Below are positions 3,566-54,167 of a DNA stretch of 61,781 nucleotides, in pieces. The stretch spans positions 1 to 61,781 of IMG/VR virus record IMGVR_UViG_3300038962_000198. One strand, 5' to 3'. The position numbers and the translations under genes are program-made. Under the pieces are notes generated by a model, which saw nothing but the letters and a program-made list of their open reading frames with translations, was not told the origin of the DNA and made no database searches. The stretch's first letter is position 1. Each line of letters starts with the position of its first letter. Source of the DNA: a virus.

Positions 3566-6500
3566 ATGGCATGTCCAACTATTCCGGGAGCTAAGTTTCT
3601 TGGCTGTAGCGTTGTTGATTTTAGTGCTTCGGCAGGATGGGGAGCGCAAAGCTCTGAGGTTACAATTAATCTAGTTGCAGATTGCGCAGAAGTTTTTATT
3701 CAGCCTCTTGTTGGTTCAGCTCACACCTTTAAAATTGGTGACGAAAATGGAGACTTTAGTTTTACCGGGTTGATACAATCATGGAATACTAGAGCTGGTT
3801 CCGATGGTCTTCTATATACCATAAAACTTATTTCTCCTCATCCTATATTGGATAATGCCCAAATTATCTTAGATAACTATCAAGATGATGTTAAACTTAA
3901 GAACATAATTAATGTATATGCCCATTTAGAATTTTTAACTGGAAATTGCGGTCAAAATTTCTATGGTAACGCAGTTTTTGGTTCTATGGCTCATGGGTTT
4001 GGTGGCTCTAGAAAAACAGCTCGTGGTATTCCATGGCCTTTGATTCGACATTCTCTGCAAGACTTAGTAGGTGGAGGTGAAAGTTCAAATCCAGTATACT
4101 GTAAAGGGTTGGAACTTGCAGGTGTTCAATATATTTTAGATATTTCAGACATTCCTTTGTCTGATTATAATTATCGTCTTATTGGGCCTACTATGTCTTT
4201 AACTGACCTTATCAATCAGGTTTGTGAGGACGCTGGATGTGATTATTATATTGAGCTATTAGATCCTAATATGAGTAATGCGGCTGGAATGCCGGTAGGT
4301 ATTATTAAGGTTGTTACTATAACAAGACAGAATGTTCCGGCGTTGGGCGCAATTTATAAGTTTGTAAATGAAGATCATAACGGGCAAGTTATTAGTAACG
4401 CTATAGGCCAAGAGCTACGTTCAGAAGTTAACAATGTATTGCTTATTGGTGGAAAAGTTAAACAATATTATCAGTGTTGGAATTCAAATCATATGACTCC
4501 TTTTTGGGGATGGAATACACAAGGATTTTTACTCAAATCTTTTCATACAGGCCAACCAAATGGATGGCAGGTAGAATTAGACTTTCGCGCTATTAACTTA
4601 ACTCTTTCCACCCCCACCGGTTTCACATTCGGTTGGGTTGGTGAAAATGAATTACGTGCTGCGGCAGGTGACTATGAAAGCTTTCAAGCATATATTCTAA
4701 GCGGTACTGAACCGAGCAGCGTTCTTCTGCAATATTTAAGGGACAGTCTGAGTTTATCGATTCCTTTTGACAGTAAAAAATGGGCTCCAAATGCAGTTCA
4801 AGATGCTAAGATTAATGCTCCAGATAATGATAATACTGGCGATCCAGCGTCTAGCAGTATTAGAGACGCCAAGGCTTTGCACCATTGGTTAAATTCTTAT
4901 GCATCTCAAGTCTATGGTAAACAATTTGTTGCAGGTTTTACGATAGGGACAGCAGTTTGTATATCTAGAGACTCTGAGACTGGAGAGGTTATATATAGCG
5001 ATGAAGTTTCTACTGATGGTGGATGGGCTAGTGCTGGCTTACTCTGGCAGAATGCTTCCGACATTTTAGGCATACCTAATCCAAGCGCACAAGCAGATCG
5101 CTTTAAGGATTTGACTGGTAAAGTACAGCCAATGGTCATGTTTGATGGTGGTCAAACTCAAATTAATACTAAAGGTCTTAGTAGTGACGATTATATTGTA
5201 GATGGGAATAGAATATGGATCAAGGCTACCGTACATGATAAATGGATATGGGGAACACCGCTCAATCCAGATGGTACTGCAAGTACGATTTTGTGTGCTC
5301 TGGTAACTATATCCAATCCTGTTACTAACGATGAGTGGACTGAAAGCTCAATGTCGTCATGTCGTCCTGTGGATAGTTTTAATCCTAACGGTCTTTTGAA
5401 TGTTGATCCTGTCGTTTCATATCAGGGCAGTGATGTTGGTGTGGGTAAGTACAATGTGGGTGGTCAGAGTCAAATGATCAGTGCTCTTGGCGACTCTTAC
5501 ATGACTTTCCCTCGTGCTATGGGAGTTCCAATGAAAAGTAATACCACTTCTTATGCTCCGTGGTGGAAGGCAGGTGTAAGTGCCGGTACTACACAAGTAG
5601 AAGTGGATGAGGGTTTGACACCGTGGGAATATGGTGGTTTTAATGCAATGGCTGCTGCTGGATGGGCTAAAGTAAGTAACGCTTGGACGCAGCAACAAAT
5701 GCTAGATCGTGGCGCCGTTACGATTCCCGGTACACCTTCTCTATCTCTAGCTCAAAATATTGATGGTGGTGGTGTCTTAACCGCACGAGGACGAATGGTG
5801 GCATCAGTACCCGGAACCAATCGGACTTATTCCTATTATAGTTATCAGTCTAGTACCCGCAATGGAGCTGCTATTATATCCAATATTAGTACTTCCGCAG
5901 GTGAGGGTGGAGTTACTACCACTTATACTGTTAATAGCTTTACTCCTGTTTTTGGTAGGTTTTCTAGACAAAATGCACAACGAATTAAACAAATTGGATT
6001 AAATAGACAGAGAGGGGAACGAGATCTCAGAGCTAGTGCTGCTTTAAGAAATTTACTTGTAGCATCCGAAAACCGTACAAATTTAGCCAATGCAGCGTCC
6101 GCAGCAGCCGAAGATATTTCTAAGGGAGCTTTAGCTCCTAAAACTCCTGCGATAACATTCGTTGGTAAAAGAACTGGTCATGACTCTGCATCGCATCAAC
6201 GAAATCTCGTTGTTGCTCCTACCAAAAACGATATGGTTTATTATGCGAAGTCTGAGTTTCAAAAAACAGCAGCCGTTACTATGGATGCGATATTTAGGCC
6301 TGTGCAATCACCCGGTAGTAATGATGGTGGTTTAGCGAAAGTAAATACGAATGATAATGAATGTTTCCTTACTAATAATAGTCAAACTACTGGGCCTCCT
6401 CCTCCCATTATAGACCACAAACCTTTAAAGATTACTGCTAAATATCTTGATTTTCTTACTAATCCAAAAGATGATGGTGATTTTACATCCTCCACAAGTT

Positions 6501-26208: not shown

Positions 26209-27852
26209 CTAAACTAGATTTTTGATCTTAGAAACTGATTTTATTATGAAACTTCCCCGTTTTGTATCCCTACTACCAATCAGCAAAGCTATTTGTCCTT
26301 CTTTCGTATCTTTTTTATATTTGTCCCACTCATCGGAAAACATAGTAATATTATCCAAGCTGCATGTACCATCACTAATCGTGAGAAATGCCATTTTCTG
26401 TCCTTTGGAATTACCTTTTTTAATTTTCCACTCTCTTATATAGTCAATTTGAGCCGCAATACGTATACCTTTTTGAGAATTAAAGCCATCAATATACTCT
26501 TTACAGGTACAGTTAGCACGACTAGTATCATATTCATCAACCCTAGCACATGTTAATGCTACGCCTAAATAGTGTTCTTCTTTTCGGGCTTTCCACCCCG
26601 GTAGATCAACGAGATCGTACCCCGGATTATTTAAAGACTCAACTATACTTTCAACTACTTCTATGCGGTCTCGTCGAAATATGGGTCGCTTTCTATCTGA
26701 CCAGTCATTATGATCAATCATAGCCTGAATACATTGCGATAGAGTCTTGTCTATATTGTTTTGTTTATACGTTTCTAGCCACGGAATTTCTCTTTTGCTT
26801 AATTCTCGAAACATTTTCAATTCATGCAACATCTTACTTCGGCTTACATTAAAGCGATCTAAAGCGCCGCTTAGAATAATAGCTTCAAATGAGTCGGCTT
26901 TAATACACAACCCAAAGAAAATAAGAAAAGTGCTCCAGCTACAGGTATCTAAATCGATTTGATGCTTCTGTAGACATCCTAACATTTTATCAAAAACTGA
27001 ACCTCCTACTGTTTTGATTTCTGTAAGCCCAAAGGTGGGATTCTTATCAATAAGGGTGAAGTACTTATTCATTTTTTGAATATTGGGTGGCTTAACATCA
27101 ATATCCATTACGCGAGCATTGTTAACTAATTCTTCTATTTCTAGGTAAGCATCGGGTTTGCCAATAGAATTTTTCAAATAGGAGGTAAAAAATTCATGAG
27201 GAAAATGAGCTTTTGTATATGCGGTTAAGTAGGAATTATATGCATAACTAACTGAGTGTGACTTATTAAAAGAATATCTTTGTGACTTTTCTATCCAGCT
27301 AAATATTTCTTTGGCCTGTTCTTTTGTTACGGTTCCTTTTTCTTCAGCCTTGGTAATAAAGTCTTTTCTCAGATTCGTCATTAAGCTTACATTCTTTTTA
27401 CCAATAGCTTTACGGAGAATGTCAGCTTCCTGTAAGTCAAAACCTCCAATGTCTCTTGCAATTAGCAATGCCTGTTCTTGATAAACTAAGATGCCATATG
27501 TACTAATAAGAATCGGTTTGAGTGCATCATGAAAGTATTCTACTGGATCTATGCCATGCTTACGGTCTATGTAGTGCTGTGTAAGACTTTTACCATCGAC
27601 GATAGCTTCCATACATCCGGGTCTGATAATAGCAATTAAATCAGACAGCTCCTCGATATTACGAGGCTTAACTCGTTCAGCCATACTTCTTCCAAGCTGA
27701 GATTCTAATTGAAATACACCCTTAGTATTTCCACTACAGATTAGATCCCAACTAGCCGTACAGTCTAGCGGTAATTGTTCAATATCCGGCGTATATTGTA
27801 TACAATTATCCGCAATCTCAAAAGTACATCCGCAAGCAAATTCCTTGTTCAT
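26209..27852 (-). CDS. dnaE: DNA polymerase III alpha subunit, C-terminal half (split DnaE)
   Basis: 547 residues covering the part of DnaE after the palm: the conserved VFQLES (46-51), the fingers region (IRPGCMEAIVDGK, then YGILVYQEQALLIARDIGG, then ADILRKAIGKK), the helical KSHSVSYAYNSYLTAY segment, the helix-hairpin-helix region (PTFGLTEIKTVGG) and an OB fold near the C-terminus (RIAAQIDYIREWKIKKGNSK). None of the catalytic aspartates is here; they are in the separate upstream gene. The junction falls a few dozen residues before VFQLES. The first 20 residues (with CGC) have no DnaE equivalent that I can see. No intein sequence is present, so the two halves must associate non-covalently. 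Confidence 0.9.
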   Translation of the reverse strand: MNKEFACGCTFEIADNCIQYTPDIEQLPLDCTASWDLICSGNTKGVFQLESQLGRSMAERVKPRNIEELSDLIAIIRPGCMEAIVDGKSLTQHYIDRKHGIDPVEYFHDALKPILISTYGILVYQEQALLIARDIGGFDLQEADILRKAIGKKNVSLMTNLRKDFITKAEEKGTVTKEQAKEIFSWIEKSQRYSFNKSHSVSYAYNSYLTAYTKAHFPHEFFTSYLKNSIGKPDAYLEIEELVNNARVMDIDVKPPNIQKMNKYFTLIDKNPTFGLTEIKTVGGSVFDKMLGCLQKHQIDLDTCSWSTFLIFFGLCIKADSFEAIILSGALDRFNVSRSKMLHELKMFRELSKREIPWLETYKQNNIDKTLSQCIQAMIDHNDWSDRKRPIFRRDRIEVVESIVESLNNPGYDLVDLPGWKARKEEHYLGVALTCARVDEYDTSRANCTCKEYIDGFNSQKGIRIAAQIDYIREWKIKKGNSKGQKMAFLTISDGTCSLDNITMFSDEWDKYKKDTKEGQIALLIGSRDTKRGSFIIKSVSKIKNLV

Positions 27853-28523
27853 TTTGTTGACATTGCCCCTTTAAATTTTGCTACGCTAGATTGTCGTCTA
27901 TGGAATTTAATAAATTGTGTTAATAGTTTTGCACTATCTATTGTATCAGAATATGCTTCGTGCGCCTGCTCAGCTTTCACACCAAAAAAATCTCTCATAG
28001 TATCAAGTCGCATATTTTTTGGTTCATCAAGATTTTCAAACCAATAAAATAGCAGGTCCATTAGATCCATTTTATTTACTTTGGCAAACGGCATTGGCGT
28101 TTTATGCTTTTTGGCTAACCGTTCACAAATAGGCAAATCAAAGCCAATAATGTTATAGCCAGCAGCAATAGGTTCTGTATACCAATTTCCATATGATTTT
28201 TCAATATGAAATTTTTTACAATATTCGCAAAAGTTTTTCCAAGCAATTTTCTCGCTTTTACCTTTCTTCCATGCAGCTACTATGTCAGCGCTATCAACAC
28301 CACGTTGTTTAGCGTGCCACTCAATGGTCTTTTGACGTTCGTCTGTAAAGTAGTCTTCTTTTGTTATACCCGGAGGTTTAATGACAGTACTAAAAGCCTT
28401 ATCTGTTTTGATTTCTAAAGTTCGAGGTTCTATAGGAACTGCCGCTAATTCGACAGGATTGCAAGTGTTAGGATCAGTACCATCGGTCTCCCAATCAAAA
28501 ACTATAATCCAGCGATTATTCAT
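27849..28523 (-). CDS. DnaQ-like 3'-5' exonuclease (DEDDh)
   Basis: 224 residues. All five DEDDh residues are visible: D10 and E12 in FDWETDG, D129 in IIGFDLPI, H188 and D193 in HEAYSD. This fold gives the proofreading exonuclease of DNA polymerase III (epsilon). It lies exactly between the two halves of alpha and overlaps the start of the C-terminal half by 4 bases, so the three are made together and probably act as one holoenzyme core. Confidence 0.92.
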   Translation of the reverse strand: MNNRWIIVFDWETDGTDPNTCNPVELAAVPIEPRTLEIKTDKAFSTVIKPPGITKEDYFTDERQKTIEWHAKQRGVDSADIVAAWKKGKSEKIAWKNFCEYCKKFHIEKSYGNWYTEPIAAGYNIIGFDLPICERLAKKHKTPMPFAKVNKMDLMDLLFYWFENLDEPKNMRLDTMRDFFGVKAEQAHEAYSDTIDSAKLLTQFIKFHRRQSSVAKFKGAMSTK

Positions 28524-28532
28524 TTTGCACCT

Positions 28533-30398
28533 TTATTGTTTGTTAAGTATAAGTGGAACTTCCATAATTTTATCTAGCATCCTAATTCCCAATACGTCTA
28601 ATTTCAGCAATCCTACATCCTCGCAACTTGGTCCTTCAAATCCCGCAAGTAAGTCCTTCTCTCCTTTATTGGCTGACTTAACCATAGGGCACGTATCCGA
28701 TATAGGGGATGGAGATACAACCACACCAGCAGCATGTTTAGATTGTATAATTTTTGTTCCTTCCATACGCATAGCTTGTTCAAAAATACGCGCCATTTTA
28801 CCTTCCAGTTTTCCATCTTCTCCTATTTCACACCAATCTTTTAATTGGTCTTTTCTGTTTTTAAGAGCCCATAAAATTAAAGATGCTTCTCCTAACTCTT
28901 CTTTCATGTCTTGAAGTTCATCGGCAATTTTAGCTTCGTCCATGATATGTTTAGTAATTTCATTCTGTTCTGTAAATGATATATTTCCTCGTGCTTGCAT
29001 TACCCGTTTGAGAGCAGAACGACCTTGTAGTGTTTGATAAGTAACAATTTGTGCTACGTTCGCTTTGCCGTACTTTTGTTTCATATAGTCAATAACTTTT
29101 TCTCTAGCTTCTTTAGGTACATCAAGATCAATATCGGGCATAGAGATTCGTTCTTCTGTGTTTCTACCCGCATTGTAAAATCTTTCAAAAACTAAATCAT
29201 ATTTAATGGGATCAATTTGAGTAATTCCGATCAAATAAGAAACCATACATCCTGCTGCGCTACCCCTGCCGGGACCAGTTAAGTAGCCTTCATGTTTACA
29301 ATATTTAAGAATATCTTGAACAATAAGAAAGTAACTAGATAAACCTGCTTCTTCAAATACTTCTAACTCTCTATTAACACGATCTCCATAGCGTTCAAAG
29401 TCTTCAGTATTCTTTTGGACATGACCCATTTTTTCAGCCCATCCCAATTTACATAAATGTCGTAAATATTCTCGTGGATTATATCCGGCAGGGGCTTTAA
29501 ATTCGGGAGGATTAGGTGCGCCTAAAATATTATATTGTTCACACATAGAGGCAATTTTAATTGTATTGTCTAATTCTTCATCGGTATGAAACATTTTCAT
29601 GTCTTCATACGATGGTATATGGTAATTGTTAGAGGCAAAGAACGAGCTTAATGATTTAGATTTGCCTTCTTTTAATTCTTGTCGGACTTGTCCTATCGTC
29701 TTTTTTAAAGACGTACACAGTAGTACCTGTTGGTCTTCTGCCGCCTCTCTGGTAGGGTAATGAGCATCGGGAGTTGCAACACATGGAATGTCAGTTTGCT
29801 TAGAAATTTCTCGCAATCGTTCAGCGACTATACGAGCGCTTTCATTGTTTTGCGAATCTATTAATTGAATTTCAATAAAAAAATTGTCTCGACCAAACAT
29901 GTTTTGTAATCGATGAGCTGCCTCACAAATAAACTTATCAGATTTATTCTCTAGAGCAACGTTACCCAAATAAGATCCTAAGTGACCACTAAATGAAATT
30001 AGATTGCCAGAAGATGCCGCCTCTCGTAATTGGTTAAAGTCAATACGAGGCTTATAATAAAATTGATCAGCATTATTAGATTGAGAAACCAAGCCGAGAA
30101 TATCTTTCCACCCCTGTAGGTTTTTGGCTAACACTACTTGGTGAATTAACTTTCTATTTTCAGATGTTTTTTCTGTAACATCTTTCTCTGATAAATAAAA
30201 CTCACATCCTAAGATTTGTTTTTGTGATGCACCCTTAAGAGTTCTGCAAAAATCTACAGCGCCTGATACTGTACCGTGATCGGTGAGCGCGCAAGTGTCT
30301 ATTTCTATATCGTTTAGTCTTTTAGAAATTTGAGAGGCTTGTGAAAGTCCATCTAGTAAACTATATTCAGAATGGACATGCAATGGAACGTAGGTCAT
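28533..30398 (-). CDS. dnaE: DNA polymerase III alpha subunit, N-terminal half with PHP and palm (split DnaE)
   Basis: 621 residues. The PHP domain is at the N-terminus (HVHSEYS with H7 and H9, TDHG at 39-42, later PDAHYP), with its metal ligands apparently intact, so it may keep its own exonuclease activity. The palm follows: GPGRGSAAG, then PDIDLD at 421-426 giving D422 and D424, and the third catalytic aspartate D601 in LKLDVLG. The protein ends 20 residues later, where intact DnaE continues into the fingers. The start is ATG 30398 with GGAGAAGG, overlapping the upstream nuclease gene by 4 bases. Confidence 0.93.
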   Translation of the reverse strand: MTYVPLHVHSEYSLLDGLSQASQISKRLNDIEIDTCALTDHGTVSGAVDFCRTLKGASQKQILGCEFYLSEKDVTEKTSENRKLIHQVVLAKNLQGWKDILGLVSQSNNADQFYYKPRIDFNQLREAASSGNLISFSGHLGSYLGNVALENKSDKFICEAAHRLQNMFGRDNFFIEIQLIDSQNNESARIVAERLREISKQTDIPCVATPDAHYPTREAAEDQQVLLCTSLKKTIGQVRQELKEGKSKSLSSFFASNNYHIPSYEDMKMFHTDEELDNTIKIASMCEQYNILGAPNPPEFKAPAGYNPREYLRHLCKLGWAEKMGHVQKNTEDFERYGDRVNRELEVFEEAGLSSYFLIVQDILKYCKHEGYLTGPGRGSAAGCMVSYLIGITQIDPIKYDLVFERFYNAGRNTEERISMPDIDLDVPKEAREKVIDYMKQKYGKANVAQIVTYQTLQGRSALKRVMQARGNISFTEQNEITKHIMDEAKIADELQDMKEELGEASLILWALKNRKDQLKDWCEIGEDGKLEGKMARIFEQAMRMEGTKIIQSKHAAGVVVSPSPISDTCPMVKSANKGEKDLLAGFEGPSCEDVGLLKLDVLGIRMLDKIMEVPLILNKQ

Positions 30399-30886
30399 TT
30401 CCTTCTCCTAAAGTTGCGTAATTCTGATATCGGCACATTGTAACAATCGGCTTTAACCATAAACCCATTGGAACGATCAATCTCTCCTCGATTAAGTTTT
30501 TCTGCTTTTTCAAAATATTCATCGTGCTCTAACCATCCCAAAACCCATGCCCTTCCCCATTTTCCATTTACCCATTCTATACGAACAAAAGCGTATCGGT
30601 CACACTTCTGTTTAGTATTATACGCCGCAACCGAACACTCGTAGTGAGATTTTGGTGGAGAAGTGCATCTTTTAGTTTTCACATCATATTTAATATTTTT
30701 ATAAACTATATCGTAATTATAAGTGTTAGTAACCTCTCCTTTTATCAGGGCGTTTGCAATTTCCTCTCCCAAAAATCCCGCTATATTTCCCTGTCCTCTC
30801 GTAATAGAGTTTTTCAACTTGCCCATTTTACGCGCTTTGGCCCATGCTCGTTTTTTCATTTGCGGCGTTATTTTAACTTCTATCAA
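30395..30886 (-). CDS. PD-(D/E)XK-like nuclease
   Basis: 163 residues. GFLGEEIANAL (38-48, with E41/E42), D59 and D68-V-K70 (IKYDVKTK) form the nuclease core of a restriction-endonuclease-like fold. The C-terminal part has an RIEWVNGKWGRAWVLGWL strand pair and a DRSNGF turn. The start is TTG 30886, chosen because AGGAG lies 7 bases upstream; the next ATG is nine codons in. First gene of the polymerase operon, directly behind the RNA array, so it is the most direct candidate target if that array regulates. Possibly used in recombination or host DNA breakdown. Confidence 0.72.
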   Translation of the reverse strand: MIEVKITPQMKKRAWAKARKMGKLKNSITRGQGNIAGFLGEEIANALIKGEVTNTYNYDIVYKNIKYDVKTKRCTSPPKSHYECSVAAYNTKQKCDRYAFVRIEWVNGKWGRAWVLGWLEHDEYFEKAEKLNRGEIDRSNGFMVKADCYNVPISELRNFRRRK

Positions 30887-30903
30887 TTTATATCTCCTAT
30901 ATT

Positions 30904-30951
30904 TAAAAAACCCCGTTTAACGTTACATGAGCTTAAGCAAAGGCCGGGGTT
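30904..30951 (-). terminator. Terminator-like element within RNA motif copy A
   Basis: On the minus strand AACCCCG (30951-30945) can pair with CGGGGTT (30915-30909), followed directly by a run of T (30910-30905). The loop is long (29 bases) and holds the 3' arm of the other stem. The run ends about 6 bases before the AGGAG of the next gene, so folding here could stop transcription into the polymerase operon. Confidence 0.5.
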
Positions 30952-30975
30952 CCACCTTACTTTTATGGCAACTCA
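30909..30975 (-). ncRNA. Pseudoknot RNA motif, copy A
   Basis: Read on the minus strand: stem 1 TGAGTT (30975-30970) pairs with AGCTCA (30933-30928), with one G-U pair; stem 2 AACCCCG (30951-30945) pairs with CGGGGTT (30915-30909). The stems interleave, giving an H-type pseudoknot. The first loop starts with GCCA and has 18 bases, the second has 11 and ends TTTGCTTA, and the third has 12 and ends TTAAA. The same layout occurs in copies B and C with different stem sequences. Confidence 0.75.
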
Positions 30976-30997
30976 AGGACCATTGTTATGTATTAAT

Positions 30998-31061
30998 GTC
31001 CCGTTTATTCTCGAATGAGTTTAAGCAAAAGTCGGGACCACACTCTGCTTCTGGCAACTCA
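30998..31061 (-). ncRNA. Pseudoknot RNA motif, copy B
   Basis: Minus strand: stem 1 TGAGTT (31061-31056) pairs with AACTCA (31021-31016), stem 2 GTCCCG (31038-31033) pairs with CGGGAC (31003-30998). Loops are 17 (starting GCCA), 11 (ending TTTGCTTA) and 12 bases (ending TAAA). Loop sequence is shared with copy A; stem 2 differs from copy A but stays fully paired. Confidence 0.75.
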
Positions 31062-31081
31062 TGACCTAGTTGTAAATTAAA

Positions 31082-31145
31082 GCCGCCTTAGCTGCTCATT
31101 GGTATTGGTGTCAGGCGACGGCAACCTGTACCCTTTGGCTACCAA
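31082..31145 (-). ncRNA. Pseudoknot RNA motif, copy C
   Basis: Minus strand: stem 1 TTGGTA (31145-31140) pairs with TACCAA (31104-31099), stem 2 GCCGTC (31122-31117) pairs with GGCGGC (31087-31082) with one G-U pair. Loops are 17 (starting GCCAAA), 12 and 11 bases (ending CTAA). Both stems have changed completely compared with A and B while the pairing, GCCA loop start and loop lengths are kept, which is strong covariation for only three copies. Confidence 0.7.
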
Positions 31146-31155
31146 CGAAACCTAG

Positions 31156-32226
31156 TTATACTTCTCCCGGCGCTTGATAAGTTCCTATTACATGTTCGGG
31201 ATGAGAACAATTATTAGTTACCCAATCAATTCCATATTTTTTAATCATATATCTCGTTTGTTCGCACTTGGTCATAGGTTGTCCATAAGGAGTTTTCTGT
31301 CTAGGGCGGTGTTCTTTTATAGACTCAACATGTGTATCTTCAAAAGTACTCATCCCTTGATGGCATAGCTTTGTACATTTCCATGATTGCTTAGGATCTA
31401 TTTGTCTAATAGTTTTAGGCTCATCTGTATTCTTAATAAATTGAAATTTTTGCTTTAACATTTCTTCTGTGTCTTTTAAGTCTTCATCTTGAAATTGCAA
31501 TGTAAATGCACCACCATCATTAATAAAAATAATAGTAATTATAAACGCTTTGACATCTGGAAACATTTGTTTCATGGCATAGTGATAGATCCGTAGTTGT
31601 GCGTCATTAAACAAGCTGGCTTGTGTTTTTTCTTTACCTGTTGCCCAATCCAGTCTTCTGCCAGTTTTCCAATCTATAACCTCATAAACCCCATCTCCTA
31701 AATCGGTTACAAGATCTATAGTTCCTTTCATGGCTACGTTACCAATTAATTTTTGGTCATCGACATCATATTCATAAGATGCCCAATCCTTATCGATAAC
31801 AAAATCAAAGCGGGGTTCGGCAGCGACTACATTTCTATTACGAGGATCAAAAGACCCATCGTTAAGTTGTAGCGCTTTCCAAGCCCACAATTGACAATCT
31901 TTAGCATCTTTATCTGTCCATGTATGATGAGGGATGCGACTTGTGTAGTACTCATAAACTCTGGCGGCTATTTTGTTTAGATATTCTGGTTTATAATTAC
32001 TAGTACTAACCCTACCAATATGCTCGTCTACAATAATTTTTTTACCGTCTTGTGCTCCCTTTTTAGCTACTGCACATATTTCTAATACTTTGTGTACGAT
32101 AGTGCCTTTGTCGGCTTTTTTATTAGATGGACCTCTCCAACCTAGAGTATATTCCATATAATATTGCATCGGGCAAAATCGATGACAATTAAAAGATGAC
32201 GATCTAAAATATACAATAGGGATCAT
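31156..32226 (-). CDS. Cas4/RecB-like PD-(D/E)XK nuclease
   Basis: 356 residues. Motifs of the RecB/Cas4 nuclease group are present: H45 in KGTIVHKVLE, D171 in GTIDLVTD, D185-W-K187 in VIDWKTGR, then a Q-L-R-I-Y-H-Y-A helix equivalent to QxxxY. Cys at the N-terminus (C14, C18) and a Cys group near the C-terminus (KCTKLCHQG, later CEQT and CSHPE) could hold an iron-sulfur cluster as in Cas4 and AddB, which is an inference. No cas genes or repeats accompany it. Probably end processing in recombination. Confidence 0.85.
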   Translation of the reverse strand: MIPIVYFRSSSFNCHRFCPMQYYMEYTLGWRGPSNKKADKGTIVHKVLEICAVAKKGAQDGKKIIVDEHIGRVSTSNYKPEYLNKIAARVYEYYTSRIPHHTWTDKDAKDCQLWAWKALQLNDGSFDPRNRNVVAAEPRFDFVIDKDWASYEYDVDDQKLIGNVAMKGTIDLVTDLGDGVYEVIDWKTGRRLDWATGKEKTQASLFNDAQLRIYHYAMKQMFPDVKAFIITIIFINDGGAFTLQFQDEDLKDTEEMLKQKFQFIKNTDEPKTIRQIDPKQSWKCTKLCHQGMSTFEDTHVESIKEHRPRQKTPYGQPMTKCEQTRYMIKKYGIDWVTNNCSHPEHVIGTYQAPGEV

Positions 32227-36274: not shown

Positions 36275-36955
36275 TTAATTCGTGTAGCAAATTGAATTAG
36301 CGTGCATAACCAATAATACGATAGCATGAAAATGGGTAATACTTGCAGCGATAACTAATATGTGCCAAATAGTATGAAAGTGATATTTACGATAGTCTAA
36401 AACAAGAAATATAGTTCCGATGCTATATAAAATTCCACCTATAATCATTAAATTTATAATGTTGGATGTTAAGGATGACTGTATAAGTAGAATCGTCACC
36501 GACTCTATCCATCCTAAAATTAGATATAACTTAACATCTACATTGTTAAGATTGTGTGAAAAAAGCAATTTAGAAAGACATCCCATTAGGGCCAATATCC
36601 ACAACGATGTTACTATTGATACTTTAACTATAAACGGAATAGATTGATCGCGCAGTAAAAAGTACATAAAAGGCGTTGCTGTTCCCACTATGAGTAAATA
36701 TATAAAAGCTTGGTCGCACTTACGTAAAAAAGTATTAATTTGTTTAAACATATACATATGTGACAGGCTAGAGGCGAGATATACCATAGTTAAAGTTATT
36801 GCATACACAACACATAAACTGGTTAGTAGTGCATTTGCATAACTATATGTCATATGCAACAGTATGTAGCCGCCGATAATGCTTAAAAGTAATCCTAATC
36901 CGTGTGTAATAACTGCTTCTAATTCTTCGCGCTTAGTGCGTAAGTTATGTATCAT
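36275..36955 (-). CDS. Hemolysin III / PAQR-family membrane protein
   Basis: 226 residues with seven hydrophobic segments. Family landmarks are present: REELEAVITHGLG at the start, a SSLSH turn, CDQAFIYLLIVGTATPF, a GGILYSIG helix, and the C-terminal metal-site motif WHILVIAASITHFHA. Members of the family (bacterial YqfA/HlyIII, eukaryotic adiponectin receptors) are membrane hydrolase-like proteins with a zinc site; the bacterial role is unclear. The His residues for zinc look intact, so it is probably functional. It stands between helicase and recombination genes, an unusual place for such a protein. Confidence 0.85.
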   Translation of the reverse strand: MIHNLRTKREELEAVITHGLGLLLSIIGGYILLHMTYSYANALLTSLCVVYAITLTMVYLASSLSHMYMFKQINTFLRKCDQAFIYLLIVGTATPFMYFLLRDQSIPFIVKVSIVTSLWILALMGCLSKLLFSHNLNNVDVKLYLILGWIESVTILLIQSSLTSNIINLMIIGGILYSIGTIFLVLDYRKYHFHTIWHILVIAASITHFHAIVLLVMHANSICYTN

Positions 36956-52892: not shown

Positions 52893-54167
52893 TTAAATTA
52901 ATTCCTCTAAAGGGTCTCGATGCTCTAATAAATAGTTGGGTCGTCCCGTATTGTCTACGATTACTTGTGATGTGGTATCAATACCTAAACCATGATATAA
53001 TGTAGCACAAATTTCTTGCATATGTACGGGCCTATCTGATGCACGTTCACCTAATTTGGTGGTAGATCCAATCACTTGGCCATGATGAAAACCACCACCG
53101 GCCAATAAAGCACATGAAACTTGTGGCCAATGATCACGACCAGCGTCTTTGTTAATCTTAGGGGTACGACCAAACTCACCCCACACCACTACTGTCACAT
53201 CGTCTAGCATACCACGCTGTTCTAAGTCTTCTACTAGGGCAGACACACACTGATCTAATTTTGGGCCATGATCACGTACTAAATCAAAATTAGCTGAATG
53301 ACTATCCCAGCGACCATAAGATAATGAAACGGATCTAGCACCGGCTTCTACTAATCGTCGTGCTATGAGAAGGTGTTCATTTACCGTAGGTGCGCCATCA
53401 TATTGATATTTAAATGGCTTGCCATCACCATATCTTTCTCTAATTTTTGGATCTTCTTTTGATAAGTCTAAAGCATCAAGTAATTTATTAGAAGTAAGAA
53501 CATTAAATGCTTCTTCATTAAATGTATTGGTATTATTTAAAACTGTAGTGATACCACCCAATGTTGTTAAAAGATTTTTTCTATTAACAAATCTATCTTG
53601 TTCAATTTTAAGAATCAGATCGTCTATCATATCGCTATTTGGCTGAAACGCTTTATGTGCATCGCCTAAATAGCCAGCAGACCCTACTTCTGACCATGGT
53701 TTGTGCTTGGTAGGTTCTGCTAGTCCTATCGTAATCGGAACCGCCGCATCTATAGGATCTAATATTTTAGACGCAGCCGATCCTATGGCAGGATATTTTT
53801 GTGATCCAATTCCATCATCTCGCCCCCATCCGCTCATACATTGATATCCATCATGAGACCCTTTACATCCTACGACAGAACGAATAGCAGTAAATTTATC
53901 AAACATGGATGCAATTTTAGGAAAACATTCACCAATCTGAATACCTGCCACATTTGTAGAAATGGGTTTAAATTCTCCTCGAATTTCTGAAGGAGCATCT
54001 TCTTTAATATCCCACATATCTTGATGTGGAGGACCGCCTGCTAAAAATATATTAATAACCGCTCTATGTTGTGTGTTATTTTCATTTTGTGCTTGTAAAA
54101 CCTGAGGCATAGACAATATACCAAAAGCACCAACGGATAGAAAGTTGCGCCGCGATAAGTTTAGCAT
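52893..54167 (-). CDS. DUF1501 family protein with Tat signal
   Basis: 424 residues, full length for the family. The N-terminus SRRNFLSVGAFGIL (5-18) is a twin-arginine (Tat) signal peptide, cleavage probable near residue 26. Family landmarks follow: INIFLAGGPPHQDMWD, a SEIRGEFKPI segment, a long middle, SYGRWDSHSANF, VVWGEFGRTP with GRDHWP, and DRPVHMQEICATLYHGLGI. DUF1501 proteins belong to the alkaline-phosphatase/sulfatase-like superfamily, function not determined, and are abundant in planctomycetes. The folded product would be exported through the host membrane. No frameshift is visible, so it is likely functional. Confidence 0.92.
   Translation of the reverse strand: MLNLSRRNFLSVGAFGILSMPQVLQAQNENNTQHRAVINIFLAGGPPHQDMWDIKEDAPSEIRGEFKPISTNVAGIQIGECFPKIASMFDKFTAIRSVVGCKGSHDGYQCMSGWGRDDGIGSQKYPAIGSAASKILDPIDAAVPITIGLAEPTKHKPWSEVGSAGYLGDAHKAFQPNSDMIDDLILKIEQDRFVNRKNLLTTLGGITTVLNNTNTFNEEAFNVLTSNKLLDALDLSKEDPKIRERYGDGKPFKYQYDGAPTVNEHLLIARRLVEAGARSVSLSYGRWDSHSANFDLVRDHGPKLDQCVSALVEDLEQRGMLDDVTVVVWGEFGRTPKINKDAGRDHWPQVSCALLAGGGFHHGQVIGSTTKLGERASDRPVHMQEICATLYHGLGIDTTSQVIVDNTGRPNYLLEHRDPLEELI

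Follow-up and report, generated by a model that had tools for sequence, protein, structure and literature searches.

H-type pseudoknots near the ribosome-binding site are found in the SAM-II and preQ1-I riboswitches. Among T4-like phages, PeSL-type cassettes are mobile and carry an early promoter together with a stem-loop, and T4 gene 43 is governed by an autoregulatory loop. In gene 32 of T4 and RB69, a pseudoknot in the 5' leader is bound by gp32 and is a documented translational operator, whose sequence diverges while the fold is kept and which some relatives have and others do not (PMC535899). In T4, the operator consists of one ~28-nt pseudoknot, followed by a less structured stretch of >40 nt with UUAAA/UAAA repeats (PMC535899). 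STAXI RNA (RF01728) is composed of pseudoknots that are repeated two, usually three times and lie near genes for DNA-handling proteins (PMC2864571).

The DNA analyzed here is a 61.8-kb virus record (IMG/VR IMGVR_UViG_3300038962_000198), referred to in full as the window. Three pseudoknots (A, B, and C) are located on its minus strand, the coding strand of a leftward DNA-replication operon, where they are housed in a 269-nt gap between an exonuclease gene and the gene of a 163-aa protein (Table 1). Searches with DnaE, the exonuclease, and the 163-aa protein led to related loci, among them homologs that keep the pairing: one related element lies at the same junction in each of L028 (with the near-identical contigs L048/L049), L004, and L020. 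The window thus has three copies and the other phages a single one, six elements being compared below.

As in the gene 32 operator, a phage leader pseudoknot is placed 5' of the Shine-Dalgarno sequence of a DNA-metabolism gene, the fold outlasts the sequence, and the element is patchy among relatives. Unlike in T4, there are one or three ~66-nt three-helix elements, 17–22 nt from the start codon, and the downstream gene encodes a predicted restriction-endonuclease-like nuclease, whereas gene 32 encodes the SSB gp32. The element resembles PeSL cassettes in being a short, putatively regulatory intergenic insert that phage lineages gain, lose, or exchange, but neither a minus-strand promoter nor a terminator was found at the locus. 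An intrinsic terminator or attenuator was rejected, since no conserved GC-rich hairpin with a U-tract was found; a U-tract comes after A and the L004 element but after none of B, C, L028, and L020.

By description, STAXI is the closest family, and the nearby genes for DNA-handling proteins are a shared feature. As to repeat number, the window has three pseudoknots and L028, L004, and L020 one each. The RF01728 model gave no match in the window at E ≤ 10. A positive STAXI example from E. coli, located from published primers, scored 134 bits with the same model, and the covariance model of the present elements did not match this real STAXI; in the F plasmid leading region, STAXI was not found. 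By our own reading of the E. coli STAXI, the 5' pseudoknot strand precedes the hairpin, and there is an extra UUCG hairpin and a conserved CUGAGA. In the present elements, by contrast, the P1-P2 hairpin is bulged and its apical loop pairs with the 3' tail, and none of the six has UUCG. STAXI membership was rejected on the lack of a model match either way and on the other strand order and layout.

The SAM-II and preQ1-I riboswitches share the H-type topology near the ribosome-binding site, but the elements have the extra helix P2, and a conserved binding-core sequence was not seen. An Rfam covariance search of the window region, L028, and L004, with models in which pseudoknots are not scored, returned only chance matches to unrelated families (E ≤ 5–10). 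The sequence-only reading had matched the motif to no known riboswitch or ribozyme class, and this was borne out, no Rfam family matching beyond chance. SAM-II, preQ1, and other Rfam riboswitches or ribozymes were rejected for want of a covariance-model match, and tRNA/tmRNA identity was rejected after a check. We file the element as a new variant among phage pseudoknot leaders, outside STAXI and the riboswitch classes and absent from Rfam.

Locus and helix architecture

The exonuclease stop codon is 8 nt upstream of P1 of element C, and the Shine-Dalgarno sequence of the 163-aa gene is 11 nt past the P3 end of element A. Over the four phages, the distance from the upstream stop to P1 is 7–8 nt and from the P3 end to the start codon 17–22 nt. 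The stop codon of the 163-aa gene overlaps the DnaE-N start as ATGA, and the same operon region includes genes for nucleases, DnaE, DnaB, primase, and RecA. DNA polymerase III alpha is split at the palm/finger junction into DnaE-N and DnaE-C, with the DnaQ-like exonuclease gene in between, and no intein-like sequence was seen at the broken ends. Elsewhere on the minus strand (52893–54167 and 36275–36955), a DUF1501 protein and an HlyIII-family membrane protein are encoded, which are unusual genes for a phage.

The 163-aa protein had 240 matching stretches in the collection, from many phages. Its family has an invariant DVKTK motif and is widespread in viral contigs (loci L048–L125); no Pfam, PHROGs, or NCBIfam model matched it, and a GTDB scan with the family alignment gave one relative (52%). 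The predicted structure (pLDDT 85.5) had NhoI as its top PDB match, with a probability of 1.00 and a TM of only 0.42. The protein is predicted to be a nuclease with a restriction-endonuclease-like fold.

Table 1. Elements and neighboring genes in the window (bulged base of P2 in brackets)
Feature	Position	Strand	Sequence or size	Basis
Upstream gene, PD-(D/E)XK (Cas4/RecB-type) exonuclease	31156..32226	-
Element C (sequence-divergent copy)	31082..31147	-		sequence, strict scan, alignment, region shuffles
C P1	31147-31140/31104-31097	-
C bulge	31139-31133	-	GCCAAAG
C P2	31132-31125/31115-31112 + 31110-31107, bulge 31111	-	GGTA.CAGG/CCTG[A]CACC, one A-C mismatch
C P3	31122-31117/31087-31082	-
C L3	31096-31088	-
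Element B	30998..31063	-		sequence, strict scan, alignment, pair counts
B P1	31063-31056/31021-31014	-
B bulge	31055-31051	-	GCCAG
B P2	31050-31043/31031-31028 + 31026-31023, bulge 31027	-	AAGC.AGAG/CTTT[T]GCTT
B P3	31038-31033/31003-30998	-
B L3	31013-31004	-
Element A	30909..30977	-		sequence, alignment, pair counts
A P1	30977-30970/30933-30926	-
A 5' bulge	30969-30963	-	GCCATAA
A P2	30962-30955/30943-30940 + 30938-30935, bulge 30939	-	AAGT.AAGG/CCTT[T]GCTT
A P3	30951-30945/30915-30909	-
A L3	30925-30916	-
Shine-Dalgarno of 163-aa gene	30894..30898	-	AGGAG	sequence
163-aa predicted restriction-endonuclease-like protein gene, TTG start	30395..30886	-	163 aa
Downstream block, closely packed or overlapping genes	26209..30398	-
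DnaE-N	28533-30398	-	621 aa
DnaQ-like exonuclease	27849-28523	-
DnaE-C	26209-27852	-	547 aa

The sequence-only reading had described three tandem pseudoknots, each of two interleaved stems, and every stem and loop length that it quoted is present on the minus strand (two-stem extents: A 30975–30909, B 31061–30998, C 31145–31082). Both stems are real, and a third helix was overlooked in all copies. The six elements support three helices rather than two, namely P1 (8 bp), P2 (4+4 bp inside stem 1, with a single-base bulge in the 3' strand), and the pseudoknot P3 (5–7 bp). The 5' bulge is 5–9 nt long and includes CC; the 5' strand of P3 is in the apical loop, and its partner is the tail that follows the 9–11 nt L3. 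P2 pairing summed over the six elements was never matched in 5,000 loop shuffles, and per single element it was weakly significant (0.009–0.11).

The claim that both stems vary yet stay paired was upheld. Over the six elements, 89% of cells are paired, 16 of 23 pairs are changed on both sides, and the covariation is 0.664, compared with 0.252 ± 0.046 when shuffled (0/500) and ≤0.194 in slid controls, all from an alignment of six sequences (three of them paralogs from one genome) that was hand-fitted with N padding, had the L020 row trimmed in the apical loop and L3, and leans towards the structure. The proposed loop signature (GCCA at the start, TAA at the end) applies to the window copies only; in the relatives GCCG or ATCC replaces GCCA, and CAA or CAAG replaces TAA. 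Beyond a CC in the bulge and an AA towards the L3 end, little is shared by all six. In the L004, L028, and L020 elements, L3 is a repeat or the complement of a P1 strand, and the MFE fold of L004 has an 11-bp alternative pairing (CTTGAGTTATC/GATGATTCAAG). Such L3/P1 pairing could be a switch between folds.

The elements and the flanking genes are on the same strand. Wobble pairs had been taken to fix the transcribed strand, which was an overclaim: over the six elements the minus-strand reading gives 7 G-U cells vs 4 A-C cells (equal to G-U on the plus strand), and these counts lean towards coding-strand RNA without being proof.

A strict scan (loops of 17–18, 11–12, and 11–12 nt, 6-bp stems) recovered B and C, and A only with its 7-bp stem 2 or with one base added to the first loop. 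When the region was dinucleotide-shuffled 20,000 times, two pseudoknots of this strict geometry never occurred together, and one occurred in 59 of the shuffles. A single pseudoknot of such size is common across the 62 kb, so that the case rests on how the copies cluster, on the loops they share, and on the homologs. MFE folding without pseudoknots was, for most copies, no better than that of shuffles. Element A scored 48.2 bits with the covariance model R2, A itself being in the training set. Copy C was missed by a covariance model built without it, and its score was reached once when its region was shuffled 20,000 times; it is homologous by structure and architecture only, having almost nothing in common in sequence.

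Distribution and probable exchange of the element

In a search of the window plus 39 records of related phages, the six-element covariance model gave matches at this junction only. Four of the 39 records were positive, all previously known, and one extra weak match (E 0.48) was at chance level. When 1.8 Mb of sequence was scanned with a structure descriptor, the elements ranked near the top, amid matches from GC-rich contigs. DNA pattern scans of viral contigs returned just the known contigs and matches without the structure, and blastn against phages only chance matches of ~20 nt. Every copy found sits at this one junction, and the carriers are a few closely related phage lineages (a small clade).

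In L005 and L033 (also L006 and L008), the element is absent and the two genes join as TAAATG. In the tree of the two flanking genes, L020, which has the element, is sister to L005, which does not, and their clade includes L033, also without it. The window phage has the triple element and a TTG start for the 163-aa gene, the relatives having ATG.

Compared in 30-nt windows, L028 is close to the window phage until the last ~200 nt of the exonuclease gene; from there on L020 is nearer, across the junction and 30 nt into the 163-aa gene. The mosaic junction of L028 is at about 4890–5195 (contig 3300020477_001071). Given this switch from window-like to L020-like sequence, the element was probably exchanged as part of a short tract, and L028 may have received it by recombination with an L020-like lineage.

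Proposed role and alternatives

Our preferred reading, with a probability of roughly 0.55, is that the elements form a tandem pseudoknotted 5' leader for cis translational control of the 163-aa endonuclease gene and probably of the split DnaE block. The covariation, the position, the lack of the element in some relatives, and the traces of recombination are shown above; what we infer about RNA form, regulation, and ligand would run as follows. The leftward mRNA would carry the elements as a folded leader. The element separates the two nuclease genes, the downstream one having its own ribosome-binding site, and the pseudoknot edge abuts the ribosome-binding region, 17–22 nt before the start codon. 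The leader would thereby uncouple the endonuclease-polymerase block from the exonuclease gene, and the folded RNA would limit or gate initiation. The binder would most likely be a phage nucleic-acid-binding protein (polymerase, SSB, or nuclease), autoregulatory as in T4 genes 32 and 43. Tandem copies may strengthen the control, and overlapping reading frames would extend it from the 163-aa gene to the DnaE block. As the stop of the 163-aa gene overlaps the DnaE-N start and the DnaQ-like exonuclease and DnaE-C follow, the leader probably precedes a coupled nuclease-polymerase block. A Shine-Dalgarno sequence is present where the element is present; where it is absent the junction is TAAATG, and translation there is thus probably coupled. 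No pairing or sequestration of the Shine-Dalgarno sequence by the element was seen. Close relatives have the same genes but do without the element; that it is dispensable counts against a leader role.

A bolder version of the leader is doubtful: a new phage RNA aptamer class, built as a bulged P1-P2 hairpin with an apical-loop pseudoknot and borne as a recombination cassette, tripled here, that would sense a replication protein or nucleotide signal and set polymerase and nuclease dosage cooperatively. We consider it unlikely that the pseudoknots act in mRNA processing or stability, by blocking ribonucleases or marking a cleavage site and thereby setting cistron mRNA levels without a ligand; the intercistronic site, the compact fold, the tandem copies, and the finding of neither promoter nor terminator would suit such a role, for which the constant distance to the start codon is superfluous. 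Small-molecule riboswitches (e.g., nucleotide or cofactor aptamers controlling the ribosome-binding site, with tandem copies sharpening the response) are improbable. The topology and the site recall SAM-II and preQ1, and the bulge CC and A-rich L3 end are kept while the stems vary, but no Rfam class matches, the low loop conservation is unlike known ligand pockets, and the element occupies one junction only.

Equally improbable is a single-stranded DNA structure in replication or recombination (priming, origin, or recombination site), as suggested for STAXI. Replication genes surround the junction, which is itself a recombination tract, and the wobble counts do no more than lean to RNA; a GC-skew turn is absent at 31 kb, however, and the coding-strand orientation and the spacing tied to the start codon argue against it. 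A trans-acting small RNA released from the intercistronic region would explain a compact, self-contained fold in up to three copies, but with neither promoter nor terminator on the minus strand and no conserved unpaired seed shared by the six elements it is very unlikely. Least probable is a recoding signal, in which a pseudoknot after the stop would make ribosomes read through or shift frame in the exonuclease gene. The constant 7–8 nt from stop to P1 in all four phages is the spacing of known recoding pseudoknots, but the residues appended by readthrough would be unrelated (14 in the window, 3 in L028, and 8 in L004), and no slippery heptamer was seen; the recoding signal was rejected because there is no conserved product.

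Autoregulation at the RNA level is a classic feature of phage replication genes, and to our knowledge few pseudoknot operators have been documented. The putative leader described here adds a structure that Rfam lacks. It has a third helix, is amplified in tandem in the window, shows whole-stem swapping between near relatives, and is present or absent among close phages despite the same gene order. These phages offer a natural experiment, in which matched junctions have zero, one, or three elements and the elements themselves are covarying variants.
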